A DNA stretch of 64,000 nt from Tautonia marina. Lineage in GTDB: Bacteria; Planctomycetota; Planctomycetia; Isosphaerales; Isosphaeraceae. This document shows, piece after piece, positions 14,596 through 31,995 of this stretch. The position numbers and the translations under genes are program-made. The notes beneath the pieces were generated by a model, which saw only the letters and a program-made list of their open reading frames with translations, had not been told where the DNA came from and ran no database searches. The DNA lies in contig NZ_WEZF01000007.1 of assembly GCF_009177065.1 (NCBI RefSeq), positions 186,001 to 250,000 of the forward strand, read 5' to 3'. The stretch's first letter is position 1; each line of letters starts with the position of its first letter.

Positions 14596-15822
14596 ATGAT
14601 CTGGCCATTGACCGCGACCGGCCCGCCCCGAGGCCGGATCGACTGGCAGGAGCTTCGGGACCGGATCGACCTGGCCGCCGTTGCCACCGCCTTGATGGGG
14701 CCGCCCCCCGGCCGACGAGGCGAACGGGGCCGCCGGTTATGGTGGCCCTGCCCGTTCCACGATGACCAGAACCCGAGCTTCGCCATCGACCCGAGCAAGC
14801 CGTTCTGGAAGTGCTACGGATGCAACGAACGGGGGGACGCTGCGAACCTCGTGATGCTGGTTCGATCGTGTTCCTTCCCCGAGGCCGTGAAGTGGCTGGC
14901 CGACTTTGCAGGGGGAGCAATCCCGTATCACTGGAGCAGTGATAGAGCAGTGATACGAAGCAAGCCGAAAGCCCCCCCGAGGCCCCCGAGCGGCCCCGAG
15001 GGGATGACCGCCGACGAGGCCGATCGACTCGTGGCCGAAGCCTCTGATCGTCTCTGGAGCCGTTCTGGAGCCGATGCCCTGGATGACCTGCGATCCCGTG
15101 GTCTGGATGACGAGGCGATCCGCGCGGCCCGCCTCGGGTTCGATCCCAGCGTTCAGGCCACGACGCGGGACGGCCGCCCCTACCGGGCCTCGGGGATCGT
15201 CATTCCCTGGGTGGAGCACAGCCGGTTGACGCTGATCAAGGTTCGCCAGCCCGAGGGCCGGAAACCGAAGTACGCCGAAGTCTACAGGCACAATCTCTCC
15301 CTGTACGTCGCTGCTCCGATCCTGCCCGGCCGCCCGGTGGTCGTGACAGAGGGGGAGCTTGACGCCCTGATCGTTGCCCAGCAAATTGCCCACCTGGGTT
15401 GTGGGGTGGCCACGACCGGATCGGCCAGCAACCGGCCCGATCGTTCCACGGTGGCCCGTCTGCTCCCTGCTACGCCCTGGATCATTGCAACCGATGCCGA
15501 CGAGGCCGGGGATCGGCTGGCCGATGCCTGGGTGGAACTGGCCCCCGGCCGATGCCGACGAGCAAGGCCCCCCGGACCCGGGAAGGATTGGGGAGATTGC
15601 CACGCCGCCGGATCTGGGAGAGTTGCGTACTTCCTGGCCCCGCTGGTCATGACTCCGCCCTCGTGGGAGGCGCTTTCAGCCCTCCAATGGGCCGAGCCGA
15701 CCGACGACGACGAACCGCCCGGAATTCTGGACGGATGTCAATCAGTCGAGTTGAACCCGCCGGATCAATCGCGTATCATTCTGACTTATCACGACTGCAT
15801 GCGCCAGCATGCGACAACGTAG
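14596..15822 (+). CDS. DnaG-type primase with CHC2 zinc finger and TOPRIM domain
   Basis: 408 aa. The N-terminal CHC2 zinc finger is clear: WWPCPFHDDQNPSFAIDPSK then FWKCYGCNERGDA (about residues 48-80). The TOPRIM core follows near residues 245-300 with VVVTEGELDALI (catalytic Glu) and IIATDADEAGD (Asp-x-Asp). The protein synthesises RNA primers, probably for replication of the excised element with the upstream DUF3987 protein. GAGGGAAG lies upstream of the ATG as ribosome-binding site. The integrase starts 10 bp after its stop. No DnaB-interaction domain was recognised. Confidence 0.88.
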   Translation: MIWPLTATGPPRGRIDWQELRDRIDLAAVATALMGPPPGRRGERGRRLWWPCPFHDDQNPSFAIDPSKPFWKCYGCNERGDAANLVMLVRSCSFPEAVKWLADFAGGAIPYHWSSDRAVIRSKPKAPPRPPSGPEGMTADEADRLVAEASDRLWSRSGADALDDLRSRGLDDEAIRAARLGFDPSVQATTRDGRPYRASGIVIPWVEHSRLTLIKVRQPEGRKPKYAEVYRHNLSLYVAAPILPGRPVVVTEGELDALIVAQQIAHLGCGVATTGSASNRPDRSTVARLLPATPWIIATDADEAGDRLADAWVELAPGRCRRARPPGPGKDWGDCHAAGSGRVAYFLAPLVMTPPSWEALSALQWAEPTDDDEPPGILDGCQSVELNPPDQSRIILTYHDCMRQHATT

Positions 15823-15832
15823 GGAGAAAGTG

Positions 15833-17203
15833 ATGGCTGACTTTCGGAAACGTGGCCGGAACTGGTACTTCCGATTCACGGATGCCAATGGCCAGCGAAC
15901 CGAGCGTAGGGGATGCCCTGACCGCCGGATGACGGAACAGATGGCCCGTGAGGCGGAATCGAAGGCCGCCCAAGAACGGGCCGGAATGATCGACCCGAAG
16001 GCCGAAGCCTACCGGCTCCACGAGTCGAAGCCCTTGGCCGATCATCTGAGCGACTTCCAGACCCACCTGACCGCCAAGGGGAACACGAGCAAGCATGCCG
16101 TTCTGTTCTCGGAACGTGCCCGGCGGGTGGCGACGGTGGCCAAGGTGGATCGGCTATCCGACCTGACTCCGGCGCGGATTCAGGCTGCCCTGTCGTCTCT
16201 GCGCGACGAGGGGAAAAGCTTGGCGACCTGCAATCATCATCGGGCCGCGATCCGGGGATTCAGCCGATGGGCCTGGAAGGATGGCCGACTGCGAGACGAT
16301 CCCCTCGTGGGGGTGGCTGGCTTCAACGCCAAGGAAGATCGCCGGCACGATCGCCGAACGCTTTCCATCGAAGAACTGAGCCGCCTCATTCGAGCGGCCC
16401 ACGAGGGACCGACCTACCGGAAGATGACCGGCCCGGCCCGAGCGTTGTGTTATCGCCTGGCCGTGGCGACGGGCCTACGGTTCTCGGAGATCAAGAGCAT
16501 CACGCCCCGATCGTTCGTCCTGGGTTCCGAGGCCCCCATGGTGACGGTGGCCCCCGGTTACACGAAGAACGGCCAGACCGCGACGTTACCCCTGCCTCAC
16601 GACCTGGCCGACGACCTGGCTCCCTATCTGGCCACGATCGCCCCCGAGGCCCCCGCCTTCCCCCTGCCTGGCCGTGGGGCCGATATGCTGAAAGTTGATC
16701 TGCAAGCCGCTGAGATCGCCTACCGCGACGATGCGGGCCGGGTGTTCGACTTCCATAGCCTGAGATGCCAGTTGGCCACGCTCGCCGATCAGGCCGGGGT
16801 CTCCCCCCGAGTCGTACAACGCCTGATGAGGCATTCCACGCTGGAACTGACCGGACGCTACACGAGGCCCCGCGCCGTCGATCTGGAGCAGGCCGCCCGG
16901 TCCCTGCCCACATTCCGCCCCAAGGCCCCCACGAGCGAATCGGAAGCAGCCCGAGCAACCGGAACCGATGGAGGCGTTGGTGGGAATCTTGCCCCTTATT
17001 TGCCCCTTACAGGGGACGGATCGAGTCGGCCCGAGTCGGATACCGTCGCAATCTCTGATATGAGCGACGCCCTGGCCATCGGGCGCAAAGGAAAACCCGA
17101 GACGGGTTTAGTCGCCTCGGGCCGGGTGGTGTCGGATGCTGTCGTGAATAGCGGCGGAGGGACTCGAACCCCCGACACGCGGATTATGATTCCGCTGCTC
17201 TAA
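15833..17203 (+). CDS. int: tyrosine recombinase (integrase) of the element
   Basis: 456 aa in the integrated state, from the ATG at 15833 (AGGGAGA ribosome-binding site). An N-terminal arm (RKRGRNWYFRFTDANGQ) and a core-binding SAM-like domain precede the catalytic domain. The catalytic residues are Arg in ATGLRFSEIKSI, HSLR in FDFHSLRCQLATLADQ, His in LMRHS and Tyr in TGRYTR, so the active site is complete. The last 19 codons are read through the tRNA-Met sequence (attR) and end LL-stop. In an excised circle the same frame would continue into the 67-codon tail at 7091-7293, giving about 521 aa. It mediates insertion into tRNA-Met(CAT). Confidence 0.92.
   Translation: MADFRKRGRNWYFRFTDANGQRTERRGCPDRRMTEQMAREAESKAAQERAGMIDPKAEAYRLHESKPLADHLSDFQTHLTAKGNTSKHAVLFSERARRVATVAKVDRLSDLTPARIQAALSSLRDEGKSLATCNHHRAAIRGFSRWAWKDGRLRDDPLVGVAGFNAKEDRRHDRRTLSIEELSRLIRAAHEGPTYRKMTGPARALCYRLAVATGLRFSEIKSITPRSFVLGSEAPMVTVAPGYTKNGQTATLPLPHDLADDLAPYLATIAPEAPAFPLPGRGADMLKVDLQAAEIAYRDDAGRVFDFHSLRCQLATLADQAGVSPRVVQRLMRHSTLELTGRYTRPRAVDLEQAARSLPTFRPKAPTSESEAARATGTDGGVGGNLAPYLPLTGDGSSRPESDTVAISDMSDALAIGRKGKPETGLVASGRVVSDAVVNSGGGTRTPDTRIMIPLL
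17149..17195. repeat. attR: 47-bp repeat inside the intact tRNA-Met
   Basis: Exact copy of 7044-7090. Here it is joined to the 5' half of the tRNA, so the functional tRNA is rebuilt on the integrase side. It also forms the last codons of the integrase frame. Confidence 0.92.
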
Positions 17204-17222
17204 CCAACTGAGCTACGCCGCC
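17149..17222 (-). tRNA. tRNA-Met(CAT)
   Basis: Read from 17222 down, the cloverleaf is complete. The acceptor is GGCGGCG with CGCCGCT (one G-U at the end) and the D arm is GCTC/GAGC. The anticodon stem is GCGGA/TCCGC with loop ATCATAA, giving anticodon CAT; the T arm is GGGGG/CCCTC with loop TTCGAGT. The discriminator is A and CCA is not encoded. The sequence type matches elongator tRNA-Met rather than initiator. It serves as the integration site of the 10.1-kb element. Confidence 0.95.
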
Positions 17223-17508: not shown

Positions 17509-17537
17509 TTGCGAGCCAGCGAGGGTCGCGATACAAA
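17509..17537 (+). promoter_or_regulatory. candidate promoter of the retron-like ncRNA and operon
   Basis: TTGCGA (17509-17514) and TACAAA (17532-17537) are 17 bp apart, each matching four of six consensus bases. Initiation would fall near 17544, about 10 nt before the proposed a1 arm of the ncRNA. Moderate support; no other pair in 17299-17554 looked better. Confidence 0.5.
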
Positions 17538-17554: not shown

Positions 17555-17840
17555 TCGACGGATAAGCAACGGATTGGAGAACAGGTCTAGCTCGACGCTT
17601 CGGCGTCGGGGCGGCGTTGCGCCGCCCGTGGAAACGATCCGCTTCGCATCACAACGAAGGCTGTTTCAGGCCCGCTGATCGCCCCGGGGGTGATTACCTT
17701 GTCGGCGGGCCTGGTCCAACCGCGCCGATCGCGGTTCCGCCGACAAGGTAATCACCCCCGGGGCGGCGGGCCAGTGAGCCTTCGATGTCCCAGGTCTGGT
17801 AGTAGACTCTCCAATGTCCATCAAATTGCTTTTCCGGCGA
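17555..17840 (+). ncRNA. predicted retron msr-msd-like noncoding RNA
   Basis: The features follow retron order. An a1 arm, TCGACGGATAAGCAA (17555-17569) plus ATTGGAGA (17573-17580), pairs with a2 TCTCCAAT (17808-17815) plus TTGCTTTTCCGGCGA (17826-17840): 8/8 and 13/15 matches. TAGC (17588-17591) follows a1, with G17590 as candidate branch base. Two msr-type hairpins come next: CGACGC-TTCG-GCGTCG (17593-17608) and GGGCGGCG-TTG-CGCCGCCC (17609-17627), then a weaker one at 17636-17650. A giant msd-type hairpin has an outer stem (17655-17662 with 17777-17784), a middle stem (17669-17675 with 17766-17772) and a perfect 28-bp inner stem (17681-17708 with 17737-17764). It precedes an operon ending in a retron-type RT. 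Function is inferred, not shown. Confidence 0.7.
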
Positions 17841-17956: not shown

Positions 17957-20900
17957 GTGGCGATTCGACGCACCCTCGACGACGTCCGCCGCGCCTGGGA
18001 GGCTCGCGACCCGATCCTCGTGGATCTGATCGTCGCCATCGCCTCGGAGCCCGACCCCGAGCCCCAAGCACCTCTGCGAGACGGGGCGCCGACGTTCGGT
18101 CGCGTCCTTGCCGAGACGCAAACCAAGGCGTTTCGCAAGAAATCGCTGGACCAACAGCGCATCGAACGCATCGAGCGTTTCGCGGCGGTCGAAGCCCCCG
18201 ACGCCGAGGTGCCGTTGCCCGACCGGCTCCGCCTGCATGAGGTGATCCTCGGACTCTGGACTGACGGTTCTCCGTTCGCCCGATCCTGCCTGCTTCGCCT
18301 CATCGACCTTCTGCCGCTGACCTACGGTCCCTGGCGGGCCTTGAAACGCATCTTCAAGGAGGCCGAGGCCCAGCACGATCTGGAGGTCTGGAGCGCGCTG
18401 GTCGCCCGGTTCGACGTGGCTTATGCCAGCCGCGACCACACGATCAGCCGACGGACGATGGCGTACCTCGTGCGCCGGGCCTGGCGATCGCTTCGGAGGA
18501 TCGGGCAGGGCATGCCGGTTGCCTATCCCGATGCGGCCTCGGCGGTGCTGGCCCGCTACCCGGAATCCTGGAGCACTTGGCGTGCTCGCACCGAAGGAGC
18601 CTGGGTTTTCAATCACCTGCTCTATCACGGTTCCAGCACACGAGCCGGTTCGAAACCCTACAACCGCAGTCGCTTCGGCTTCGGCGCGACCCACAAGGAC
18701 CCGTTGACCACCCGGGCCTTCCCCGATCTCTGGCGTCGCAGCCCTCGCCCGTTGTTTGGCCTGCTGGAGCGAGCCCGCTGCAACCACGTCCGAGGTTATG
18801 CCGCTGAGGCCTTGAAGAAAGACTTCCGAGCCGCCCTGCGCGAGGTCGAACCCGCCTGGGTCGTCCGCCTGATCGCCTCATCAAGCGAGGCGGTGCATGA
18901 TTTTGTCGTCTGGATTCTCGGCAACGTGCCGAAGTTCGAGCAAGGAAGCTTCCGCACGCTGGGCCTGCACGACGCGGTCCTTCGTTTATTCGACTCACCG
19001 AGCGACGAGGCCCGGTCGTATGCCGCCTCATACGCCCGGACTCATGCTCGTGATCTTCCCGTTGCGACCCTGATCCGCCTGGCCGACAACCCGAGCGATT
19101 CCGTTCGAAAACTCGCCGCCGACCTGCTCGGCGAACGCGACCCGAGACGCGACATCGGCCTCGACGCCTGGGGACGCTTGCTCGAAACCGAACACGGCCA
19201 TGCCCTCGCCGCCCAGGTCATTCAGAAGCACTTCGGTCCGAAAGAACTGACACCCGAGTGGTTCGCCGACCGCCTCTTCTCACCGAGCGATGAAGCATTC
19301 GAATTTGTCTCGGAGCTTCTCCCGAAGATCCACCCGAGCAAAACCCTGGGTGCTGCCTATTTCCAAGCCTTGATCGACCGCGACGACCGAACCGCCGAGG
19401 AACCTGCCGGCGACGTGGTCGGCTTTGCCATGGAGCACCTTGCCCGGTTCGAACCGAATACCTTCGACCCCGAATTTCTCTCCCTCTTGCTCCTGCGTCC
19501 CGGGACGTCCTGGGAGGCCGCCGACTGGATCGATGAGGGTCGGCTCAAGGCCTCCGCGATCCCCCTCGACCTGCTCAAGGCACTGGCCTTCCATCCCGAC
19601 TGGGACGAACATCCCGTCGTTCGCAAGGCTCGCGCTCTCGGCAAACGTTGGGGAAGCGAACTGACGTTTGATGAGGATCTGGCGGATCGGGTCCTGGTCT
19701 GGCTTCGGGACGTCCGCCGTTTCCTGCCGGCAGATCTCGGGTTCGACTGGCTGATGACCCTCGTCCGACGGGCCGAGCCACGCTATCACGACTTCGCCGT
19801 CGAGGTGATGATCAAGGGGTTCGTCCCCGCCGATTTTGCCCCCTCCGAATCGCACCCCGAACCCGAACAGAGTTCCCCGGCCGAGCAGGAGATCACGGTC
19901 GATTTCGGCGGGGCCTCGTTCCTCTTTACCGGCAAGCTCGCGACCATGCAGCGCAAGGATGCCGAGGGAAAAGTTCGCAACGCCGGCGGCGCGGTTGCCT
20001 CCGGAGTGACGGCCAAGCTGCATTATCTGGTGATTGGTGACGAGGGCTCGCCACTCTATGGCAACGGCAAGAAAGGCTCGAAGCAGGTCAAGGCCGAGCA
20101 ATTGAACGCCGAAGGGGCGAACATCCGGATCATCTCGGAAACGGCCTTTCTTCAAATGCTCACCGGTCGTACCCGGGAAGTCTCGGCCGACGCCACGTTG
20201 CTCGGGTGCGATCGGCTCTGGCAACTGGCTGTCGGAGGCGGGGCCGAGGATGCTCGGCTAGGCCAGTTCGCCCGCAAGTATCTGCGGCGTCATCATCCCG
20301 AGATGGCCCTCGACGAAACCGATCGGCCCGTCGATCCCGGAGCTGAGATCCCTCCCGAGTTCCTCAGCTTCGATCGCGTCCGCCCCTTGTTCTTCGAGTC
20401 AAGGGAGCCGCTCCGTTCCTTCGCCCTGGCGATCGCTCGTTACGAGTTCGCTCGGTGGGCTCCTCCCGGTCCCGACCTCGTTCGCCTTGCCGAGGCTCCC
20501 TTCAGCGATGTCCGGCGCTTCGTGGCCGAAGCCCTCCTGGCCGAGGCGAGTCCCGAGCATCGCCGCTACCGCATCGACCCTGATTCGCTCAGCCCGGCCG
20601 CCGTCTATCGCTTCTGTGAGTCGAGCGACGACGCCACCCGAGCCCTCGGCCTGAAGCTGATCGCCCGGTCCCCCCGGCTCCGACTCCCTCAGGAACTCTA
20701 CCGGCTGACCGAAAGCCCCGACCGCGCCGTTCGGGCCTTCGTGCTGCGAGCCTTGTGGGCTCTGTACCGCGATCGCCACGTAACCGACGATTGGTCGCCG
20801 TTCGTTGCTCCGAAGCCGACCATCGGCCCCGTCGCTCGCAAGAAAGCGGCTGAAGCGGCCGAAGCACGCGGCTCCGGTCCCCCCGCTCGGCCCGAGCAAC

Positions 20901-21271
20901 CGCCCGCGACCGCGAACCGGATGAGCGACCTCCTGCGCCGGATGCTGTTCGAACTTCCGCCAGGCCGCCCCGGTCGCCGCTCCGCCTCGACCGATGACAC
21001 TCGCAATGATGGTGACGGCTTCGATCGACTCCAACCGCTCTCAAATCGTCTTGCAAAACTGGCGATTGTGGAAACCCTGCGTGATCTGGCGATGGAGGAC
21101 GAGGCGTTCGCCCGATCGGCCTTGCCGCCCCTGGTCGAGTTCATGGCATCGCACGGCAAAAGCGAACATGCCGCCTGTCTGGTCGCCGTCACCCGCATTC
21201 GCCGCGCTCATCCCGACCTGGCAGCGGTGGGAATGGCCTCGGAAACCACTGAGAAGGAGGCCACCTCGTGA
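17957..21271 (+). CDS. HEAT-repeat protein with internal BRCT domain (retron-associated)
   Basis: 1104 aa from a GTG with GGAG 9 nt upstream. An in-frame ATG at 17840 is possible but would add low-complexity residues and overlap the ncRNA a2 arm. Most of the protein is helical ARM/HEAT-like repeats with recurring V-R-x-x-A and L-L-x-x segments (VRKLAADLLGE, VRRFVAEALLAEA, VRAFVLRALWALY). At about residues 645-735 lies a BRCT domain (ASFLFTGKLATMQRKDAEGK, VRNAGGAVASGVTAKLHYLV, a Lys-rich loop, then IISETAFLQML). BRCT domains bind phosphoproteins or DNA ends. It overlaps the next gene by 4 bp (GTGA). In the retron context it is a likely effector or scaffold subunit. Confidence 0.8.
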   Translation: MAIRRTLDDVRRAWEARDPILVDLIVAIASEPDPEPQAPLRDGAPTFGRVLAETQTKAFRKKSLDQQRIERIERFAAVEAPDAEVPLPDRLRLHEVILGLWTDGSPFARSCLLRLIDLLPLTYGPWRALKRIFKEAEAQHDLEVWSALVARFDVAYASRDHTISRRTMAYLVRRAWRSLRRIGQGMPVAYPDAASAVLARYPESWSTWRARTEGAWVFNHLLYHGSSTRAGSKPYNRSRFGFGATHKDPLTTRAFPDLWRRSPRPLFGLLERARCNHVRGYAAEALKKDFRAALREVEPAWVVRLIASSSEAVHDFVVWILGNVPKFEQGSFRTLGLHDAVLRLFDSPSDEARSYAASYARTHARDLPVATLIRLADNPSDSVRKLAADLLGERDPRRDIGLDAWGRLLETEHGHALAAQVIQKHFGPKELTPEWFADRLFSPSDEAFEFVSELLPKIHPSKTLGAAYFQALIDRDDRTAEEPAGDVVGFAMEHLARFEPNTFDPEFLSLLLLRPGTSWEAADWIDEGRLKASAIPLDLLKALAFHPDWDEHPVVRKARALGKRWGSELTFDEDLADRVLVWLRDVRRFLPADLGFDWLMTLVRRAEPRYHDFAVEVMIKGFVPADFAPSESHPEPEQSSPAEQEITVDFGGASFLFTGKLATMQRKDAEGKVRNAGGAVASGVTAKLHYLVIGDEGSPLYGNGKKGSKQVKAEQLNAEGANIRIISETAFLQMLTGRTREVSADATLLGCDRLWQLAVGGGAEDARLGQFARKYLRRHHPEMALDETDRPVDPGAEIPPEFLSFDRVRPLFFESREPLRSFALAIARYEFARWAPPGPDLVRLAEAPFSDVRRFVAEALLAEASPEHRRYRIDPDSLSPAAVYRFCESSDDATRALGLKLIARSPRLRLPQELYRLTESPDRAVRAFVLRALWALYRDRHVTDDWSPFVAPKPTIGPVARKKAAEAAEARGSGPPARPEQPPATANRMSDLLRRMLFELPPGRPGRRSASTDDTRNDGDGFDRLQPLSNRLAKLAIVETLRDLAMEDEAFARSALPPLVEFMASHGKSEHAACLVAVTRIRRAHPDLAAVGMASETTEKEATS

Positions 21272-24200
21272 GCGTCCAGGAAACCTACCTGACGTACCGG
21301 GGGGAGATCCGAGCCCTGGCCTCCTCAGGCAAATGGCTCGCCTTCGTGACCGAACACCCCGAACAGCGGCCGACCGCCGTCTACCGACTCGACTGCGAAT
21401 CGTTGACCCTCGCCACCGACCCACTCCCCACCGGAGCGAAGTCGATCTGCCTGATCGGCGATGACCTCTGGATCGGCGGCACCGACGGAGTCTGCTACCG
21501 CGGGTCGCTCCAGGGAGGCGCCCCAGGCCGATCCCTGACCATCGAGGGCGGCCCCCTCTCGGCTCTGGTCCCCCTGGCCGAAAACCGCCTGGCAATCGCT
21601 TCGGGGCAAACCCTCACAATCGCCGACATCAAGAAAAGCAAACCTGCTGCCCTTCAGACACTCGACCTCCCGGCTGAGATCACCTGCCTGGCCTGCGATC
21701 CGACCGGCCTCTGGCTCGTCGCAGGAACGAGCAAGGGGGATGTCTCCGTCTTCTCGGCCGAAGGGCGCGAGGACTTCCTCCTCAGCGAGTCGAGCAAGCT
21801 GCACGAGGGGGCCGTCTCGGCCTTGCGGTTCGAACCGGACGAGCTTCGCTTCCTCTCGGCCGGGGCTGATCGCAAGCTGCTTTCGACCCTGGCCCGCGGA
21901 ACGCTCGAACCGGAAGACCGGGGCAAGAGCAACACCCATGAGGATGTTATCACCAGGATCGTCTGGGCTCCGGGAGACCGCTTCCTCACGGGATCGCGCG
22001 ATTCGACCGTCAAAACCTGGCCCCGCACCGGGGGAAGCCGTCCGGCGACCTTGAAAGACGGCGTGGCAAAGGTGCGCGATCTGGCGATCGTCACGGTCCA
22101 CGAGCGTCCCCGGCTGGTCATCGCCTGCGAAGACAACACCCTTCGTCTGGTCGTGCTCGATGCCGCCGGTAAGTTCGGCGACGCGACCGCCCGCATCTAC
22201 GATGGCCTCGCCCGAGCCAGGCACGAACTCTCCCAGAGCGATCCCCGACGCCGTGAAGCTGCCCTCGTCAGCCTGACCGAGGCCGGTGATTCCGCCGCCG
22301 TCGAACTGCTCGCCGAGCACTGTCGTGCTGACACCGATCCGGATCTCCGACTCGACGCCGCCCGACGCCTCGGCCAGGCCGATCACTCTCGCGTCGTCCC
22401 CTTGCTCGAAGGGTTGCTCGATCACCCGGACGAACGGGTCCGTGTGCTCGCCTTCGAGCAGCTCCGTGCCCGCACCGACGCGGCGGATTTCCGCCCAATC
22501 GACCTGGCCCTGAAGACCGATCATCCCGAGATCGGCCGTCTGGCTGTCCAGGCCCTCGAACCTCTCGCTCGGCGCGATGAACAGGCTCTCGACCGCCTCC
22601 TGGCCACCCTCGACGCCCGCCAGTGGGAAGTCCGCCGATCGGCCGCCGAAGCCCTGGAAGCCATCCACGCTCCTGATGCTCCCGAGGCCGATTTGATTGC
22701 CCTCGGCTCCAAGCACGCCGACCTACGCCGCTGGGCCCTCGTCCGATTGCTCCAGCGCGGCTTGCTCGATCGCTCCGAGGTCGCAACCGCCCTGCGTCGC
22801 CGCTCAGACGATCGCGATGCCGACGTGCGTCGCGTTGCGTTCTTGCTCCTGCTCCACACCCGACCTCGCCTGCTGGACACCCTTCGCCAGCGCGATCCGG
22901 ACCTCGACCGACAGCTCAACGACCTCGCCACCGATCCTGGCGGGCCAGGGCAGGGGGGAACGACCGAGGTCGCAGATTCCGCCTCCGACCCCAAACCCAA
23001 AGGGAAGGCCCGAGCGGCCAAGTCTCCGAAACCCTCGAAAAAGGCCGCATCCGAGGCCGTCTCGGTGACGGATCTCGACGCCGATGACCTCGCTCCCTTA
23101 CTGAACGCCTCGGCGAGCCGATCGCTCGACACCTCCCTCCGAGGGGCTCGCGGCCTGGCCTTGCTCGGCGACCCGAGAGCCTTCGGCCTGCTGCTCCAAC
23201 TGAGCCGGGAAGCCGATGCCACCGCCCGCGTCGAGGTCTGTCGAGCCCTGGCTGCGCTCGGAGATGACGCGGCCCGTCACCGCCTCCGGTCGCTCGTGCA
23301 TGACGAAGCTCCGGAAGTCCGCGACGCCGCCTTCTCCGCTCTCGCCTCGATCGACCACGATGCCCCTTTGCTCGCCGCCGAGGCCGGCCTGAACGCCGAT
23401 CACGACGACGTCCGCCGCCGAGGCCTGCAACTCCTGCTGGCCGAGGCCCGCAAGGCCCCCCCGAAATCAGCCGATGATCCGATCGGGCGTCTGCTTGTGC
23501 GAGCCCTGAATGATGGGTCGCCCCCGATCCGGGCCGAGGCGTTCAAGGCCTCGCTCAACCTTCCCGTCGCCGGTGGCGGAGCCGGGGCGCTCCGCTTCAC
23601 CCGGCAAAGCATCCACACCGATGTCCGCCGCGAAGTCCTCACCGAGGTGCTCGCACAGCTCGCCCAACCCTGGGCCTGGGACCTCCTGCTGGAAGTCTTC
23701 GACGACCCCGACTCCGAACTTCGAGCCGATGCCTTCGCGGCCGCCTCGACCAAGGCCAAGGGGCTCGATGTGCTGGAGGCCGCGCTCGGCGCCCGCTTCG
23801 CTGACGTGCGGGCGAAGGCCGTCGCCGCTCTGGTGAAAAAGCATTCGGCCAGGGCCCACGCCATCCTCGCTCGCGCGATCGACGACGAGGACCGCGATGT
23901 TCGGCTCGCTGCCATCGACGCCCTTGTGTCCAACGACGCCCGATCCTTGCTCGCATCGGCCCTGGCCGCTCCTCACGCCGATGTCCGTGTTCGGGCGGCT
24001 CGGGCGTTGGCCCGGCACGGCGATCGGGCGGCACTCGGACCGCTCATCTCCCTCGCCGCCGCTCCCGAGCCGACCGAATCGGAACGCCTCTCCGACTGGC
24101 TCGATCTGGCGGGATTGGCCCTCAATGGCCTCGCCGAGCTGGGAGACGCCGAGGCAGTGCTCCCCGTCCTCCCCTTGCTCGACTCCACGCACCCACCGCT

Positions 24201-27200
24201 TCGCAAAGGGGCCGCCGAGGTCCTCGTCTGGTGCGTCGATTCCGAGGCAATCGATCCGCTTCGCCAGGCCCTTTCCCACGCCGACCTCCACGTGAAATAC
24301 CGGGCCGCGATGGGCCTGGCCCTGCGCGGAGATGCATCGACCGCCCCTCTGATCGACTCGGCCGAGGGAACGAAAGTCCTCAGCCGAGACGACCGTCTGG
24401 CCGCCGCCGTCGCCCTGGGAGATCCGGGTGAAGGGCGAGTTGTGCTGACCCTCGACGACGAAAACGCGGCAATCCGAGATCGCGCCCTGTTGCTCTTGAT
24501 GCTTCGGGAACACCACACCCCCCGAGGCGACGCAGACCGATTGATCGCCGCCCTGTCGAGCCGATCCCCTCGCGTCCGCCTTGTCGCCGCCGATGCCTTG
24601 CAATCCGCCCACGACCGGGCCGCGCTGCTCGCCACCATCACCCGATTGATCAACGACCGTGACGACCAGACCGCCTGGACGATTTCCGAAACCACCGTCA
24701 ACACGCTGGCCGATCTTCTCGTCCTGGCCCCTCCCATCGTCCAGGCCAGGGGAGTGATCCGCCTCCTCCCACTGCTCGGACCGGACGAAAAGGAACAAGC
24801 GGCCTTCGAGCTTGCCTGCACCGCCTTCGCTCAGCGGTTCGGCTCCTCAGTCACCGTCACTCCCGACAACGGCTCGCACGCTCGATCCGATTCGATCCCC
24901 GCCCTCGAACTCCGCGCCCGGGCCTTCGGCGCCTATGTCGGCCTCGTCCGGGAGCAAGCCGCCCCACCCGCGTCGGGCCGATCGAAGAAGCGCCAGGCCA
25001 CCGCCAATCCGGCCGCCGAGGCCGCGATCGTCCGCGTCCGTCGCGCGGCTCTCGACCGGCTTCGATCCCTGGCGATCGACGACCCAAGCCTCGCCGCCGC
25101 CAGTGTTCCGGTCATGCTCCAGGCCCTGGCCGACCCGAACCAGGTGGTCCGATTCACCGCGTTTGACCACCTGCACGCCCTCGGAACCGACTCCACCCTG
25201 CTCGGGGCCGAAGCGCTCGGCGCCGGCCCGACCGATGTGGGCGTTCGTGGCCTCGAACTCCTCAGCGGCAGCAAGGACGATCCGAGCGGCCAATCGGTGC
25301 TTGAGCAGGTGATGATGACCCGCAAGGACAACCTTGCCACCGAGGCCGCTCGCCTGCTCGGCGATCGCCTCGGCCGCGCCGTCGTGGCGACCAGGGCCCT
25401 CGATGCCGCTTCCGAGCCGCTCCGCTTGCTCGCCGTTTCCTGGCTCCGCGAATTTGCCGAGTCCGACCCAAAGGCCCTGACCGCCCTGCGCGGCGCGCTC
25501 GAATCCCGCTTCGCCGCCGTCCGCCGTTCGGCCGCCTTCGCCCTGGCGGAACGGCACGATCCGGCCGCATTCGAGGCACTGGTTCGTCTGCTCAACACCC
25601 TGGTCGAGCCCCGGGACCGGCAGAACGTCATTGCCGCCTTCGACACGCTCGGCGACCCCCGAGCGGCTGGAGTCTTCCTTGACCTCATCGACACCAACGC
25701 CTCCGGCACCGCCTCGGCCGAAGTCCTCATTCCCGCCGCCGCAAAGTTCCGCCGGCCCGACGATTCCTCTCGGCTCCTTGCGTTCATGGAACGGCTCCCC
25801 AAGGCCCGGATGCTTTGCTTCCAGGCCGTCCTGGCAATCAGTGGGTACGACCAGCCCGTCGCCGACCCCCAGGATGAACGCCCCAACGATCGTCGATGGA
25901 TGGAGTCTCAGCACCCGAGGCGAGACGCGATCCTTGCCTCCCTTCTCGATCGCTGCCTCACTCTCGGCGAAACCCGGCTCATCCAGCGAGCCATCACCCC
26001 GGCGCGTTGGGCCCTGGGTTCAGAGGTCAACGAACCGCTCGGCCTCGCCTCCACCCATCCCGAGGAATGGCCCCGCCGCGAGGCGATCGAAGCCCTCGGC
26101 TGGCGGCTTCGCAAGCGCAACGGCCCGGCCGACCCCTTGCTCAAAGCCCTCCAGCATCCCGATCCCGTCACCCAGTTCCTCGCCGCCGAAGGGCTCGCGC
26201 TTGGGGCTCGGACCGAGGGGATCAGCGTCCTGCTCTCCGCCGTCGATTATCTTTCCGACCTCGCGCTCCGCCGCCGGGCCGTCGTCGCCCTCGGCGAGCT
26301 GGAAGACCCGAGAGCCTTCGACCGCATCCTGCAACTGGCCGGCGAATCCGGCCACGCCCTGCAAGATGTCGCCGCCGAGGCCCTCGGTCACCTCGGCCGA
26401 GGGCCCCGATCCGCCGACGTGTTCAAACTGCTCGATCGCCAGAGCCGATCCTCCGGCTCCGTCGCGGCAATGGCCTTGCGAGGACTCCGCTGGCTCGGCA
26501 CCCGCGAGGCCTGGGCTCGGATCCGCGAGGTCGCAAGCACCGAGCACGATCGATCCGACCTCGTCCCAATCGCCCTCGACCTGCTCGCCTTCGACGACGA
26601 GACGGCCACGCGAGACCTCTTGCTTCGGCAGCTCCGCGAAGCCACCTGGCCCGACTACTACATCGCCCTCCGCAGCGCCCGGAACCTGTTCGGCCCCGAG
26701 TCGATCGAGCCTGACGAGGCCGCCGTCCAAAATCCGTTCGACCGGTTCGGTTCGGGCCGGTTCACCTGGTCCGACCTCCAGAAACGCTTCGACATCCCCC
26801 TCGCCGAACCGCTCGAACGACTCCGCGAACACGCCGATCCCGCCCGGCTGTTCGCACTTATTCCCCGTTGCTCAGAAACCAACGCCAAGGCGATCGGTGC
26901 CATCCTGCTTGATCTTCCAGAGCCTCCGCTCACCGAGGCCCGCGCCGCGATCGACTCCGAAAGTGCCCCGGCCGTCGCCACCGCGGCCCACATCCTGGGC
27001 CGGACCAAGGATGCGAAGTCCGGACCGAACCTCGCCAGTGCCCTCTCGCGATGGACCACAATCTGGACCGCGTCCCGCGAAGCGGCCAGGCGGGTCGAAA
27101 CCCGCGTCGCCGGCCCTTGCCGCGACGACGAGGCGCGCCTCCTCGCCACGCTCGCCTGGGCGGCAGGGCGAACCGAATCGGCGGTTGACGAGTTGCTCCA

Positions 27201-27789
27201 GCTCATCGCCTTGGAACTTGCAAGCGATCCCGATCAGACCGATCCGCGCATCCTCCGATCGGCGGTCGAGGCCCTGACGCTGTTCGCATCGCCTCCACCC
27301 GCCGTATTGGACATTCTCGCCACCCTCGCCCGCGAAGGCCCGGCCGACCTCCGGACCCTCGCCACTGATGCCCTCGCCCGGTTCGATCCAAAGCGAGCCT
27401 CGACCATCGCCTCCGACCTGATCGGCGACCCGGTCGGCTTCGACCGCCTCTCGCATCACCTCAGCAATACCCTCGACGGTCCGCTGACCGAAGCGGCCCC
27501 CAACCTGCACGCCCAGGGGGTTGCGCTGCCCCAGCTCGTGGCCCGAGGACACCTCGATCCCCTGGCAACCGTCGCCGTCGATCGTTCCCTGCCCGATGCC
27601 GCCCGTCTCGGAGCCGTCGAGGCCCTGGCCGCCCTCGCCAGCGAATCAGCAGAGGAGCATCTCAGAGCAGTCGGCCTCGATGCCGCCAACGACGAAGCCT
27701 TGCGTAAAGGTGCCTGGCGAGCCCTCCGCCGCTCAAGGCGTCTCCGCGATCGCTCCCGCAATCCCCGACGCCACGAGGTGACGCCATGA
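21268..27789 (+). CDS. giant beta-propeller plus HEAT-repeat protein (retron-associated)
   Basis: 2173 aa from a GTG with AAGGAGG 8 nt upstream, overlapping the previous stop. Residues 1 to about 310 form WD40-like blades (YLTYRGEIRALASSGKWLAF, HEGAVSALRFEPDELRFLSA then GADRKLL, HEDVITRIVWAPGDRFLTGS then RDSTVKTW). From about 320 to the end are dozens of HEAT/PBS-lyase-like repeats (DPDLRLDAARRLGQADHSRV, DERVRVLAFEQLRA, DVRRRGLQLLLAEA). There is a Lys/Ala-rich linker near residue 575. No catalytic motif was seen. It is an adaptor or sensor-like solenoid, coupled by ATGA overlap to the SWIM-WGR gene. It is one of the largest genes in the window. Confidence 0.8.
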   Translation: MSVQETYLTYRGEIRALASSGKWLAFVTEHPEQRPTAVYRLDCESLTLATDPLPTGAKSICLIGDDLWIGGTDGVCYRGSLQGGAPGRSLTIEGGPLSALVPLAENRLAIASGQTLTIADIKKSKPAALQTLDLPAEITCLACDPTGLWLVAGTSKGDVSVFSAEGREDFLLSESSKLHEGAVSALRFEPDELRFLSAGADRKLLSTLARGTLEPEDRGKSNTHEDVITRIVWAPGDRFLTGSRDSTVKTWPRTGGSRPATLKDGVAKVRDLAIVTVHERPRLVIACEDNTLRLVVLDAAGKFGDATARIYDGLARARHELSQSDPRRREAALVSLTEAGDSAAVELLAEHCRADTDPDLRLDAARRLGQADHSRVVPLLEGLLDHPDERVRVLAFEQLRARTDAADFRPIDLALKTDHPEIGRLAVQALEPLARRDEQALDRLLATLDARQWEVRRSAAEALEAIHAPDAPEADLIALGSKHADLRRWALVRLLQRGLLDRSEVATALRRRSDDRDADVRRVAFLLLLHTRPRLLDTLRQRDPDLDRQLNDLATDPGGPGQGGTTEVADSASDPKPKGKARAAKSPKPSKKAASEAVSVTDLDADDLAPLLNASASRSLDTSLRGARGLALLGDPRAFGLLLQLSREADATARVEVCRALAALGDDAARHRLRSLVHDEAPEVRDAAFSALASIDHDAPLLAAEAGLNADHDDVRRRGLQLLLAEARKAPPKSADDPIGRLLVRALNDGSPPIRAEAFKASLNLPVAGGGAGALRFTRQSIHTDVRREVLTEVLAQLAQPWAWDLLLEVFDDPDSELRADAFAAASTKAKGLDVLEAALGARFADVRAKAVAALVKKHSARAHAILARAIDDEDRDVRLAAIDALVSNDARSLLASALAAPHADVRVRAARALARHGDRAALGPLISLAAAPEPTESERLSDWLDLAGLALNGLAELGDAEAVLPVLPLLDSTHPPLRKGAAEVLVWCVDSEAIDPLRQALSHADLHVKYRAAMGLALRGDASTAPLIDSAEGTKVLSRDDRLAAAVALGDPGEGRVVLTLDDENAAIRDRALLLLMLREHHTPRGDADRLIAALSSRSPRVRLVAADALQSAHDRAALLATITRLINDRDDQTAWTISETTVNTLADLLVLAPPIVQARGVIRLLPLLGPDEKEQAAFELACTAFAQRFGSSVTVTPDNGSHARSDSIPALELRARAFGAYVGLVREQAAPPASGRSKKRQATANPAAEAAIVRVRRAALDRLRSLAIDDPSLAAASVPVMLQALADPNQVVRFTAFDHLHALGTDSTLLGAEALGAGPTDVGVRGLELLSGSKDDPSGQSVLEQVMMTRKDNLATEAARLLGDRLGRAVVATRALDAASEPLRLLAVSWLREFAESDPKALTALRGALESRFAAVRRSAAFALAERHDPAAFEALVRLLNTLVEPRDRQNVIAAFDTLGDPRAAGVFLDLIDTNASGTASAEVLIPAAAKFRRPDDSSRLLAFMERLPKARMLCFQAVLAISGYDQPVADPQDERPNDRRWMESQHPRRDAILASLLDRCLTLGETRLIQRAITPARWALGSEVNEPLGLASTHPEEWPRREAIEALGWRLRKRNGPADPLLKALQHPDPVTQFLAAEGLALGARTEGISVLLSAVDYLSDLALRRRAVVALGELEDPRAFDRILQLAGESGHALQDVAAEALGHLGRGPRSADVFKLLDRQSRSSGSVAAMALRGLRWLGTREAWARIREVASTEHDRSDLVPIALDLLAFDDETATRDLLLRQLREATWPDYYIALRSARNLFGPESIEPDEAAVQNPFDRFGSGRFTWSDLQKRFDIPLAEPLERLREHADPARLFALIPRCSETNAKAIGAILLDLPEPPLTEARAAIDSESAPAVATAAHILGRTKDAKSGPNLASALSRWTTIWTASREAARRVETRVAGPCRDDEARLLATLAWAAGRTESAVDELLQLIALELASDPDQTDPRILRSAVEALTLFASPPPAVLDILATLAREGPADLRTLATDALARFDPKRASTIASDLIGDPVGFDRLSHHLSNTLDGPLTEAAPNLHAQGVALPQLVARGHLDPLATVAVDRSLPDAARLGAVEALAALASESAEEHLRAVGLDAANDEALRKGAWRALRRSRRLRDRSRNPRRHEVTP

Positions 27790-29681
27790 GCGACGCCCCC
27801 AACGCTTCCCAGGTCCCGAGCGAGCCTGAGCCCGTCGAGACCGAGATGCCGTCTCACACCGACGTCGATCTCGCCTACGCCGCGCCCAGCACGCTCGTCT
27901 CCGACGACAATCACGCCACGCTCGCCCTTGTCGGCAATCTGAAGCGTCCCGCCGTGCGGTTCGAGGCCAACTTGACCGACCCGCTCCGCTTCCGCGAAGC
28001 AATGGGTGCCCTCTACGCCGTCGTCGGCAGCGATTACCGCTACGTCCCCAAAGACCGCACGGCCTATCTCGCCTACCGACGGATGCGGGCGGAATCGGCC
28101 AACCTCGGCCTCTGGGAAGGGCAGCGGGCTTACTTCTCCTGGCTGATGCGCAATGATCCGCTTGCGTATGTGATCCTCGATCCGGTCGTCTCCGTCCATC
28201 CCGATCAGGTCTTCTTCGAGGTCTTCAGCAAGGACGAAGGGACCTATGCCAAGCTCGGCGTCGATCTCGACGCCTTCGAGCACGACCCCGCCATCACCCC
28301 CCACTGGGGCACCACGAACATCGACTTCAGCGAGGCGCTTCACCTGGGCCTCGAACAACTGCGCAGCGAACGGCCGACCCGCCTGAGGATCGGGCAAGAC
28401 GGGGTCTCCGTCCGCACCGAAGGGACCGGCACGGTCCTGGAGAAATCCATCCGGGTGCCCGATTCCTGGCTCCGCGGGTTCCTCCAGGTCCAGTCGGCCG
28501 CGGCCCTCCCGCGTGACTCCTTCACCCTGAACCCGATCGACCTCTACAACGCCCTGCGTCACCTTCGGATGCACGCCGACCGCAAGGGAAAACGCCGCGG
28601 CCTTCGGATCGAGCTCGTTCCCGGCGAACCCCCACGGCTGGTCCTCGAACCCTGGGAAACCCTCATCCCCTCCTCGGCCGCACCGTATCAGGGCAAAACC
28701 GCCAAGGTCGTCCGGGTCTGGGGACGCCGTCGCCTGTTTCTCCTTCGTCGGTTCCTTCCGCTCGTCGAGGAGGTCGAGGTTCATCTGCTCGGCAGCGGCT
28801 TGCCCAGCTTCTGGGTCCTCCGCGCAGGCCCGTTGACCCTGACCCTCGGCCTAACCGGCTTCACCGCCGCGAACTGGTCGCAGGCCATCCGGTTCGACCT
28901 GCTCCTGCCCCGCAAGACCCAGGACACGACGGCCGAACTCGACCTCGTCCTCGCCCACCTGGCCGATCACTGGAAGGCCGGCGCCGGCGATTTGCTCAAG
29001 GCCACCAAGCTGAAATGGGAAGCCCTGGTCGAGGCCCTTCAACTTGGTTGCCAGCAAGGGCGGATCATGTACGACCTGGCTGCCGACGTCTACCGCCTTC
29101 GCCCCCTGACCGATGCCCCCATCGACCTCACTCGCCTCGAATATCGCAACGCCCGCGAGCGCACCGCGCACGACCTGATCGCCCGCCGAGGGGCCGTGAC
29201 CATCGTCTCCGAGACCCGAATCGCCGCCACCGGCCTTGAGCTGACCGGCCGGGTCGAGGTGGCCGAAGACCGCCGCGAGTATCGACCGGTCCTCCTCCTG
29301 ACCGACGAAGGGCAGGTCGCCAAGGCCGAATGCACCTGCCCATTCTTCCGCCGACAGGGGCTCAAGAACGGTCCATGTGCTCACCTGATCGCCCTTCGGC
29401 TCCTCCACGCCGAGCGCGAAGCGCAACGCCGTCGCGGCCTGACCCCGGCCGAAGCCCTCACCGCCGAGACTCGGGCCTTCAGCCGTCGCGACCCTCAGGG
29501 AGAATCGGTCTATCAACTGGCCCTCGATCGTCAACGCCTCACAATCCACTGGGGCCGTGCCGGTCAGCCGCTCCGCCGCCAGCGCTTGACCTTCAACTCG
29601 ATCGACGACGCACGCCGGGCTTACCTTGCCCGTGTCTCGGAACTCTCGACCGGAGGCTACCTCGATGCCTCCGACAGCTAA
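27786..29681 (+). CDS. SWIM zinc-finger and WGR-domain protein (WHSWIM-like)
   Basis: 631 aa; its ATG overlaps the stop of the giant gene. The SWIM zinc finger is explicit near residues 515-540: AECTCPFFRRQGLKNGPCAH (C-x-C...C-x-H). A C-terminal WGR domain follows near 575-625 (QLALDRQRLTIHWGRAGQPL, RRQRLTFNSIDDARRAYLAR). The region before the SWIM finger looks like a winged helix (REAMGALYAVVGSDYRY, later WEALVEALQLGCQQG). WGR and SWIM domains bind nucleic acids. From memory, retrons with ARM/HEAT partners carry such WHSWIM proteins. The E. coli yeh/molR cluster also combines WGR and SWIM proteins, but no MoxR/VWA genes are present here. Confidence 0.85.
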   Translation: MSDAPNASQVPSEPEPVETEMPSHTDVDLAYAAPSTLVSDDNHATLALVGNLKRPAVRFEANLTDPLRFREAMGALYAVVGSDYRYVPKDRTAYLAYRRMRAESANLGLWEGQRAYFSWLMRNDPLAYVILDPVVSVHPDQVFFEVFSKDEGTYAKLGVDLDAFEHDPAITPHWGTTNIDFSEALHLGLEQLRSERPTRLRIGQDGVSVRTEGTGTVLEKSIRVPDSWLRGFLQVQSAAALPRDSFTLNPIDLYNALRHLRMHADRKGKRRGLRIELVPGEPPRLVLEPWETLIPSSAAPYQGKTAKVVRVWGRRRLFLLRRFLPLVEEVEVHLLGSGLPSFWVLRAGPLTLTLGLTGFTAANWSQAIRFDLLLPRKTQDTTAELDLVLAHLADHWKAGAGDLLKATKLKWEALVEALQLGCQQGRIMYDLAADVYRLRPLTDAPIDLTRLEYRNARERTAHDLIARRGAVTIVSETRIAATGLELTGRVEVAEDRREYRPVLLLTDEGQVAKAECTCPFFRRQGLKNGPCAHLIALRLLHAEREAQRRRGLTPAEALTAETRAFSRRDPQGESVYQLALDRQRLTIHWGRAGQPLRRQRLTFNSIDDARRAYLARVSELSTGGYLDASDS

Positions 29682-29740
29682 ATCGTTTCCCCTGTCCGCA
29701 TAACTTCGATCATCTCTCCTGGTTCGAACCCCGGTGCTCG

Positions 29741-30610
29741 ATGACTGCCGTCCATCGCCCCGTTTTGCTCGACGAAGTCCTCACCTGGCTCGACCCGAAG
29801 CCAGGTGGCGTCTTTGTCGACGCCACGGCCGGCGCCGGGGGGCATTCGGCCGCCCTGGCCAAGCGGGTCGGGGCGGACGGACGTGTCATCAGCTTCGACC
29901 GCGACCCCATGATGCTCGACTTCGCCCGAGATCGCACCAGGGGCCTGCCGGTCACACTCGTCCATTCGGCCTACGACCGGCTCGTCGAGGAGCTTGATTC
30001 GCTCGGCATTGCGCAGGTCGACGGCATTCTGGCCGATCTCGGTTTCGCGTCCGATCAGATGGACACCGGCTCCCGCGGCTTCAGCTTTCAGCGCGAGGGG
30101 CCGCTCGACATGCGCTTCGACCCATCGCAGCCAACCACCGCCGCCACCCTGGTCAACGAACGCTCGGCCGATGAGCTGATCGCCCTGTTCCGCGACCTGG
30201 GAGACGAGCCCCGAGCCCGAGCCATCGCCGACCGCATTGTCGAACGCCGCCACCAAGGGCCCATCACCACCACCGAGGAACTTGCCTCCTTGATCCGAAG
30301 CGTTTACGGCCACCGGCGCGAGCGGATCGATCCGAGTACCCGCGTCTTCCAGGCCCTCCGGATCGCTGTCAACGATGAGCTGTCTCTTCTCGATCGCTTC
30401 CTCGCCGTTGCCCCCGATCGGCTCCGGCTTGGCGGTCGGTTCGTTGTGATCAGCTTTCACTCACTCGAAGATGAACGCGTCAAGGCCGCTTTCCGCGATG
30501 ACGAGCGCCTCCGCCCCTTGACCCGCAAACCCGTCATCGCCAGCGACCGCGAAGTCCGGCAGAATGCCCGCTCCCGCAGCGCCAAGCTCCGCGCCGCCGA
30601 GCGAGCCTGA
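29741..30610 (+). CDS. rsmH: 16S rRNA m4C1402 methyltransferase RsmH
   Basis: 289 aa from the ATG at 29741; earlier in-frame codons run through the previous gene. Motifs are MTAVHRPVLLDEVLTWLDPK, the SAM-binding FVDATAGAGGHSAALAKR, VDGILADLGFASDQMD, GFSFQREGPLDMRFDP, and the closing RVFQALRIAVNDEL and VVISFHSLEDERVK blocks, all typical of RsmH/MraW. It N4-methylates C1402 in the ribosomal P site. Normally rsmH sits in a division/cell-wall cluster. Here it is 59 bp after the SWIM-WGR gene and 65 bp before the RT gene, same strand. Confidence 0.95.
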   Translation: MTAVHRPVLLDEVLTWLDPKPGGVFVDATAGAGGHSAALAKRVGADGRVISFDRDPMMLDFARDRTRGLPVTLVHSAYDRLVEELDSLGIAQVDGILADLGFASDQMDTGSRGFSFQREGPLDMRFDPSQPTTAATLVNERSADELIALFRDLGDEPRARAIADRIVERRHQGPITTTEELASLIRSVYGHRRERIDPSTRVFQALRIAVNDELSLLDRFLAVAPDRLRLGGRFVVISFHSLEDERVKAAFRDDERLRPLTRKPVIASDREVRQNARSRSAKLRAAERA

Positions 30611-30675: not shown

Positions 30676-31995
30676 ATGTCCCGAGCCACCGATCTCCTCT
30701 CGCTCTGGCGGGCCATCGAACACGCAGGGGGCATTGACGCCTATGTGAACACGCAGCTTGCCGAACGCGGCTTCCTCGTCGCTCGCCGAGACGTGGACAC
30801 AATGTCCGACCGCGAACGCACCGCCTACAAGAAACAACTTAAGGAAGAAGCCGCCCATCGTCGGGAACTGAAGCGAGAGGCCTGGAAAGCCTATCGCGCC
30901 CGGCACATCGTCCACCTGGGCGAGGGCATCTACTGGAACGATCAGGCGACCAAGGACCCCTGGGACGCTCCCGACGCCGAGGAACGCGCCGCCGAGAACG
31001 AACTGCCTCCGCTCGACTCGCCCCGCGATCTGGCCGAGGCTCTCGGCCTGACGATTTCCCAACTCCGCTGGCTCGCCTTCCACCGCGACGCGGCCACCTC
31101 GATCCACTATCGACGCTTCACCATTCCCAAGCGAGACGGCTCGGAACGAGCCATCTGGGCCCCTTTGCCAACCCTCAAGGCCGCCCAGCACTGGATTCTC
31201 CGCAACATCGCCGAAAAGCTTCCCGTCCACGGCGCGGCGCACGGATTTCTGGCCGGCCGGTCGATTCTGTCCAACGCCAGCAACCATGTCGATTCGGCGC
31301 TGGTCGTGAAAATGGATCTCAAGGATTTCTTTCCCTCGGTCACTTTTCGGCGCGTGAAGGGGATCTTCCGCCGGGCCGGCTACCGCGAGCAGGTGGCAAC
31401 GCTACTCGCCTTGATCTGCACTGAAGCCCCCCGGGAGATCGTCGAGCAAGGCAAGACGACCTACTACGTCGCCCTTGGCCCTCGGGCCTTGCCCCAAGGC
31501 GCACCGACGAGCCCGGCCTTGACCAATACCCTCTGCCTTCGGCTCGATCGCCGGCTCGATGGCCTCGCCCAGTCGCTCGGCTACCGCTACACCCGCTACG
31601 CCGATGACCTGACCTTCAGCCTCCCCCGCAGTCACGAGGGAGACCCGAAGCTCGGCACCTTGCTCGGCAAGGCCCGCCGTGTGGTCGAGTCCGAAGGATT
31701 CACCGTCCGGCTCGAAAAGACCCGCGTCGCCCGCCCCGGCGCCCGTCAGCAGGTCACCGGACTGGTCGTCAACGGCGCGGCTTCCCCTCGCACACCTCGC
31801 ACCCTTCGCCGCCAACTCCGGGCCGCAGTCCACAATCTTCAAACTGGAAAACCTCGGCCCGACGCCGACACGCCCGAACGGCTCGCCGGCCTCATCAGCT
31901 ATGTGGCCATGACCGACCCGACCCTCGGTCAGGCACTTCAAGCCCAGTGGACCAACCCATCAAAACCAACCAGCTCCGATGACTCGCCGAGCTAA
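30676..31995 (+). CDS. retron-type reverse transcriptase
   Basis: 439 aa, ATG with AAAGGAGAGG just upstream. It has an N-terminal extension of about 120 residues with a basic coiled segment (KKQLKEEAAHRRELKREAWK). The RT fold follows: RRFTIPKRDGSERAIWAP, DLKDFFPSVTF (near 213, first catalytic Asp), LPQGAPTSPALTN (near 272), YTRYADDLTFS (near 308, the YADD active site) and QQVTGLVVN (near 361, retron-type VTG motif). No maturase or endonuclease domain. It should convert part of an msr-msd RNA to branched DNA. The flanks (65 bp before, 261 bp after) show no msr-msd of their own. The best candidate lies at 17555-17840. Confidence 0.9.
   Translation: MSRATDLLSLWRAIEHAGGIDAYVNTQLAERGFLVARRDVDTMSDRERTAYKKQLKEEAAHRRELKREAWKAYRARHIVHLGEGIYWNDQATKDPWDAPDAEERAAENELPPLDSPRDLAEALGLTISQLRWLAFHRDAATSIHYRRFTIPKRDGSERAIWAPLPTLKAAQHWILRNIAEKLPVHGAAHGFLAGRSILSNASNHVDSALVVKMDLKDFFPSVTFRRVKGIFRRAGYREQVATLLALICTEAPREIVEQGKTTYYVALGPRALPQGAPTSPALTNTLCLRLDRRLDGLAQSLGYRYTRYADDLTFSLPRSHEGDPKLGTLLGKARRVVESEGFTVRLEKTRVARPGARQQVTGLVVNGAASPRTPRTLRRQLRAAVHNLQTGKPRPDADTPERLAGLISYVAMTDPTLGQALQAQWTNPSKPTSSDDSPS

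Follow-up and report, generated by a model that had tools for sequence, protein, structure and literature searches.

Among described systems, the one closest to the locus analysed here is the type XIII retron, represented in PADLOC-DB by RT_XIII, HEAT-ARM_XIII and SWIM_XIII, a typing that reportedly goes back to Mestre et al. 2020. Retron-Eco1 (Ec86), of type II-A, shares the general mechanism and the reverse transcriptase (RT), and its RT is the closest solved structure; its locus is compact and its effector is a different one, the Ec86 effector gene also lying between the ncRNA and the RT. Across retrons, TAGC is the norm for the sequence around the branching G, and msd stems as a rule include mismatched or wobble pairs (PMC6868368). 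The msDNA has been described as a latch, which holds the effector complex until a phage disturbs it (PMC13158370). Of further relevance is Retron-Nex1 (Ne160) of Nannocystis exedens, known as several msr-msd repeats with no RT within a kilobase, which were earlier read as a duplication caused by a distant RT or another element (PMC6868368).

The window, a 64,000-nucleotide stretch of the Tautonia marina genome, holds RT, HEAT-ARM and SWIM genes of type XIII; the RT, the SWIM protein and both HEAT-ARM proteins match their PADLOC-DB counterparts over most of their length. Whereas the other type XIII retrons examined have a different RNA, located between SWIM and RT and/or before SWIM, the window carries a structured RNA at 17555-17840, at the head of the operon, on the same strand as the RT and about 13 kb from it within one gene array. 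The preliminary description had proposed this segment as the template and primer RNA for the RT at 30676, a proposal that now finds support in covariation, in the occurrence of the RNA only together with the operon and in the assignment of the RT to type XIII. It is highly likely that 17555-17840 is the msr-msd RNA of the type XIII RT at 30676-31995, that it is a free-standing gene, and that its predicted branched msDNA would form a phage-sensing complex with the partner proteins. Several points count against this reading: retron cassettes of msr, msd and RT are usually compact, but RNA and RT are 13 kb apart here and megabases apart in some Myxococcota; no sigma-70-like promoter was found; the proteins examined have no recognisable toxin domain that could be assigned the effector step; and one genome, G470, has HEAT-ARM with no RNA detected. 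The genes of the operon are as follows.

17957-21271, + strand: HEAT-ARM_XIII, 1104 aa, alpha-solenoid around a central BRCT domain (about 652-735); PADLOC PDLC02921, 1134 bits; Pfam HEAT_2 and BRCT; predicted model
21268-27789, + strand: giant HEAT-ARM_XIII, 2173 aa, N-terminal WD40-like propeller followed by HEAT repeats; PADLOC PDLC02919, 1951 bits, full-length; Pfam
27786-29681, + strand: SWIM_XIII, 631 aa, predicted clamp-like fold (about 58-369), SWIM zinc finger (507-537) and WGR domain (576-629); PADLOC PDLC02972, 630 bits; Pfam; model
29330-30610, + strand: rsmH-like methyltransferase ORF (domain from about 29750), outside the retron core; Pfam; locus comparison
30676-31995, + strand: retron type XIII RT, 439 aa, with NASNH, YADD and VTG; PADLOC PDLC02956, 543 bits; motifs; nearest solved relative the Ec86 RT

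NAxxH and VTG are motifs of retron RTs, and the RT of the window has them in regions X and Y, together with YADD. Its best matches in the PDB are likewise retron RTs, with the Ec86 RT as the nearest solved relative (E 1e-42). The first HEAT-ARM protein most likely starts at GTG 17957 and not at GTG 17690, where the listed open reading frame begins and overlaps the RNA, because the homologous DNA upstream is RNA and not protein; homologues and DNA conservation both indicate the later start. Partial similarity to WGR_XIII was seen in the HEAT-ARM protein, and the WGR domain sits at the C-terminus of the SWIM protein. No recognisable nuclease or toxin domain was found in the 1104-aa HEAT-ARM and SWIM proteins. 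The predicted model of the SWIM protein (pLDDT 79, pTM 0.74) was compared by Foldseek, where the great majority of the matches listed were sliding clamps (PCNA, 9-1-1 or bacterial; best E 2e-7), and realignment of its residues 55-368 gave Z 15.2 and an rmsd of 2.9 A over 218 of 249 residues; the SWIM partner is thus predicted, by the model only, to have a PCNA-like sliding-clamp fold. Two neighbours fall outside the system. The rsmH-like gene, considered as a component and dropped, is the only convincing rsmH match of the genome and lies between SWIM and RT in the window's genus only, and the tRNA-Met gene adjoins the RNA only in some loci of the same genus. A phage-type integrase ORF at 15809-17222 runs into this tRNA-Met gene.

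The RNA itself can be divided into the following parts.

17555-17589, + strand: a1 arm, the 5' end of the RNA, with TCTA just before the branch G; minimum-free-energy (MFE) pairing with 17801-17840 and own-versus-swapped duplex energies
17590, + strand: predicted branching guanosine, the G of TAGC, whose 2'-OH would prime reverse transcription; first unpaired base after a1
17594-17607, + strand: msr hairpin 1, GACGC-TTCG-GCGTC; MFE and double changes
17609-17627, + strand: msr hairpin 2, GGGCGGCG-TTG-CGCCGCCC; MFE and alignments
17643-17802, + strand: predicted msd template for a cDNA of about 153-160 nt, which would be copied from 17802 to a putative endpoint at 17643-17650; structure and conserved a2/msd boundaries
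17680-17708, + strand: left arm of the msd core stem, perfect over 29 bp, its sequence near-random between loci
17709-17736, + strand: terminal loop of 28 nt with a conserved CAACC..CGCC..GGTT motif
17737-17765, + strand: right arm of the msd core stem, perfect over 29 bp
17803-17840, + strand: a2 arm (TAGAC...); MFE and own-versus-swapped duplex energies

The segment has an MFE of -172.9 kcal/mol, compared to -116.1 +/- 5.1 for 200 dinucleotide shuffles, none of which folded as well (z -11.2), and this fold bears out the retron-like anatomy first described for it. Specifically, the a1/a2 inverted repeat flanks the msr-msd region; G17590 lies directly after a1 in TAGC, the sequence (alongside CAGC or GAGC) expected of retrons, and the AGC is invariant in an alignment of 14 sequences; and two short msr hairpins, in the retron range of one to three, accompany a single long msd hairpin with its base at about 17650-17662 and 17777-17789. 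With 5-6 pairs, msr hairpin 1 is slightly below the usual 7-10. The perfect core duplex noted in the preliminary description is present, with a length of 29 bp and not the 28 bp given there. Rfam returned no family above the gathering threshold for 17555-17840, only sub-threshold matches to microRNA hairpins, and the promoter proposed at 17509-17537 was not recovered by a sigma-70 consensus scan of the + strand.

The structure is conserved by compensatory change. In seven giant operons with the same RNA, 94.2% of cells pair across 77 tested pairs, and 39 of the 77 show double changes (RNAalifold was also run); none of 500 shuffles equalled the observed pairing and double-change values, and in a control with the partners offset by 1-3 columns pairing fell to 38-48%. 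R1, a model built from the msr portion, was scanned against 59 loci that had been retrieved through similarity to the HEAT-ARM protein and gave 40 matches in 35 of them, every one on the coding strand and with E down to 3e-24; some of these 35 loci come from training genomes (for example Singulisphaera acidiphila), and most do not. The RNA was found in 30 of the 33 Planctomycetota loci fetched in this way, the three misses starting at contig ends. The two msr hairpins contain 86 doubly changed cells compared to 25 expected over the 40 R1 matches, in an alignment fitted to the model, and within hairpin 1 double changes affect three of five pairs in the 14-sequence alignment and all five with 40 sequences. 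For the 54 RNAs with a placeable a2, the a1/a2 duplex averages -23.6 kcal/mol with their own arms versus -14.1 with swapped arms, the former value being somewhat favoured because a2 had been located through its complementarity to a1. The expectations that a covariance model would find this RNA upstream of homologous HEAT-ARM operons, conserved and covarying, and that a1/a2 and the hairpins would show compensatory changes, have therefore been confirmed: the RNA is nearly always directly upstream of HEAT-ARM, and a1 and a2 covary across the 54 RNAs.

Whole-genome samples tie the RNA to the operon. Across 45 genomes of the window's order, the RNA occurs in 10 of 11 with the giant operon and in none of the 34 others (p 3e-9), a test that is partly circular because several Isosphaeraceae sequences belonged to the training set of the model; the ten are exactly the genomes with an assembled operon head, and the operon of the eleventh is cut at a contig end. 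Among 392 Planctomycetota genomes, RNA and operon occur in the same three and the RNA in none of the other 389, a result that adds just absence elsewhere because all three positive genomes trained the model. The Myxococcota test is not circular: in 29 genomes of the order of Nannocystis, none of them used in training, the RNA was detected in 15 of the 16 with HEAT-ARM (undetected in G470) and in none of the 13 without (p 2e-7). In all three samples, the RNA is confined to genomes with the giant operon.

These Myxococcota also contain the most distant arrangements. For six species of Nannocystis, for Minicystis and for several Polyangia, the search revealed no RNA copy at the operon, and in Minicystis and Nannocystis the two lie 1.9-5.6 Mb apart, so that RNA and RT do not share one locus. 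The complete chromosome of N. poenicansa carries the RNA pair at 7.768 Mb and the RT of the operon at 11.154 Mb; the corresponding positions are 9.285 Mb (9,285,044-9,285,463) and 3.663 Mb in N. exedens DSM 71, whose other retron RT is at 7.17 Mb, and the RNA of Minicystis rosea is at 2.751 Mb with the operon RT at 0.877 Mb. In draft genomes of Polyangia, RNA and operon either fall on separate contigs or are separated by about 15 kb (Byssovorax, L097). The flanks of the unlinked copies, over stretches reaching about 9 kb per side, yielded no homologue of RT, SWIM or HEAT-ARM. In the six Nannocystis species, the RNA pair occupies one orthologous site, where two islands of about 225 nt stand out by their conservation from the less conserved stretch that separates them; substitutions seen within the perfect core stem are matched by compensatory changes in the opposite arm. 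Nannocystis genomes carry a second retron RT as well, RT_A, and the RNA is adjacent to neither, which would fit a role of this RNA in the other, type XIII-like retron, with a link to the giant operon only elsewhere. Such a role is improbable, since RT_A has an adjacent RNA of its own with matching a1/a2 and falls outside the giant-operon clade of the RT tree, and since the unlinked RNA tracks the HEAT-ARM of the giant operon in the order sample. Under the preferred assignment to the giant-operon RT, the RNA of Nannocystis and Minicystis would act in trans from its distant locus.

The tandem RNA pair of N. exedens DSM 71 resembles Retron-Nex1 in host, orphan status, repeats and size (about 153-160 nt of predicted cDNA). 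It is plausible, and a strong lead, that this pair represents the orphan Ne160 repeats, given the agreement in host, arrangement and size. In contrast to the earlier reading of Ne160 as a product of duplication or retrotransposition, the orphan RNA would then be tied to a distant operon. This offers a testable answer to the 1990s puzzle of msr-msd repeats without an RT in N. exedens and may explain orphan msDNA.

The position of the RNA also varies among linked copies. In Planctomycetota it lies directly upstream of HEAT-ARM with two exceptions, namely L071, where it is about 2.5 kb upstream, and Uabimicrobium amorphum (L072/L120), where it follows the RT. In the basal myxobacterial clade L158-L160, up to three copies lie between SWIM and RT and/or after the RT. 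The RTs of giant operons form one clade (100/100), in which RT-side RNAs are basal and head and trans positions lie above. No other conserved RNA was found beside the RT in the window's clade, an alternative that the preliminary description had named, and the gene before the RT (SWIM or RsmH) ends about 30-65 nt short of it in the window, L033, L042, L052 and L054. In type XIII retrons further removed from that clade, a different RNA has been retained between SWIM and RT, and the long distance between RNA and RT is therefore a real rearrangement. It is very unlikely that the RNA is instead a structured, cis-acting leader or attenuator of the giant operon: although in most Planctomycetota it directly precedes the first gene (with a median gap to HEAT-ARM of 87 nt among R1 matches) and is followed by terminator-like hairpins in 8 of 54 copies, it has the a1/a2 pairing, TAGC and long msd hairpin of a retron, and because copies exist beside the RT or unlinked to the operon, cis regulation cannot be their common role. 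Rather, the RNA behaves as a free-standing gene whose location with respect to the RT has shifted repeatedly.

A dispersed inverted repeat such as a MITE, raised at the outset as an alternative, is ruled out for the window by a single genomic copy of the 17555-17840 DNA, save for the match to its own reverse complement, and one hit of the RNA model. The wider notion of a mobile repeat or retrotransposed msDNA copy that lies near the operon by chance, with relics in Nannocystis, draws on tandem copies in several loci (L067/L074, L080, L084, L127), on the unlinked Myxococcota copies and on the relic idea put forward for N. exedens in 1997-2002 (reported in PMC6868368), but has very little probability given one to three unscattered copies per sampled genome, their restriction to genomes with the operon and the intact, compensated state of both Nannocystis copies at their orthologous site.

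The msd stem differs from those of most retrons. While retron msd stems generally have mismatched or wobble pairs, the core stem of the window is perfect, and a perfect Watson-Crick stem of 20 bp or more is present in 51 of 54 RNAs, with lengths clustering at 24 and 29-30 bp. No two of the 51 msd arms are the same; aligned positions are 31% identical, compared to 27.5% expected from composition, and this near-random identity applies between genera and between tandem copies. The pattern points to selection on the perfection and length of the duplex, with a sequence that is little constrained between genera. The idea of a stem that is hypervariable over short range was withdrawn, as the stems of Nannocystis orthologues are conserved and their changes compensated. 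An exact 21-nt piece of the window's msd arm had no match in viral contigs, which argues against a simple phage-derived arm.

The available data are compatible with a model in which a1/a2 pairing presents G17590 to the RT, which would start cDNA synthesis from the 2'-OH of this base and extend it over about 153-160 nt of template, as far as approximately 17643-17650. The product would be a branched msDNA with a perfect 29-bp DNA duplex as its core. The complex of msDNA and RT may then join the clamp-like SWIM/WGR, HEAT/BRCT and WD40-HEAT solenoid proteins in a phage-sensing complex, in which the clamp-like protein would engage the perfect duplex and the solenoid proteins could serve as scaffold or effector. 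A defence function of the window's retron is presumed by analogy, and the assignment of partners to the unlinked RNAs is similarly putative. A broader possibility, put forward tentatively and with somewhat less than even expectation, is that the immune system of giant type XIII retrons is a split one. The template RNA would be an autonomous gene, placed at the head of the operon, next to the RT or at megabase distance (with orphan Ne160 as the trans form), and the msDNA a duplex fixed in length, free of mismatches and free in sequence, which would be held in a PCNA-like clamp and read by its shape and length and not by its sequence.

These findings bear on how retrons are searched for and used. 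Searches for retron RNAs usually look just upstream of an RT and can miss whole classes, because the RNA can lie 13 kb or megabases from it. A predicted clamp-fold partner together with a perfect, sequence-free msDNA duplex suggests a mode of DNA sensing that is undescribed in the retron literature surveyed. The unlinked relatives are, furthermore, candidates for a natural system in which RT and msr-msd work in trans, which would be useful for editing tools. Type XIII itself is an established type; the papers surveyed contained no description of the RNA family, of its location at the operon head or in trans, or of the clamp fold, and these features may be new.

Several minor observations accompany these results. 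One RT can be accompanied by tandem RNA copies with different msd stems: two or more msr-msd copies per operon were seen in L067 (G001, 2632-3340), L080, L084, L127 and L158, and tandem copies are also listed for L067/L074. One planctomycete (G129) has a second RNA copy on another contig (C1266:2435-2521) in addition to one near the operon. Type XIII retrons of Planctomycetes that lack the giant gene sometimes have two related RNAs with differing perfect stems, one before SWIM and one before the RT (L039 14492/16445, L041 13869/16454 and L043 3651/5694, in oriented loci). ACCCCT and GTAC are weakly enriched in the otherwise unrelated msd arms of the 51 RNAs. Intergenic hairpins in L036, L040 and L055, of the CACAGAGGCACAGGGACACAGAG type, were considered as extra retron RNAs and rejected, being repeat-like and devoid of msr anatomy; these long perfect inverted repeats (L036 3320-3423, 9735-9805 and 11675-11792; L040 16790-16905; L055 1040-1139) probably constitute a dispersed repeat family.
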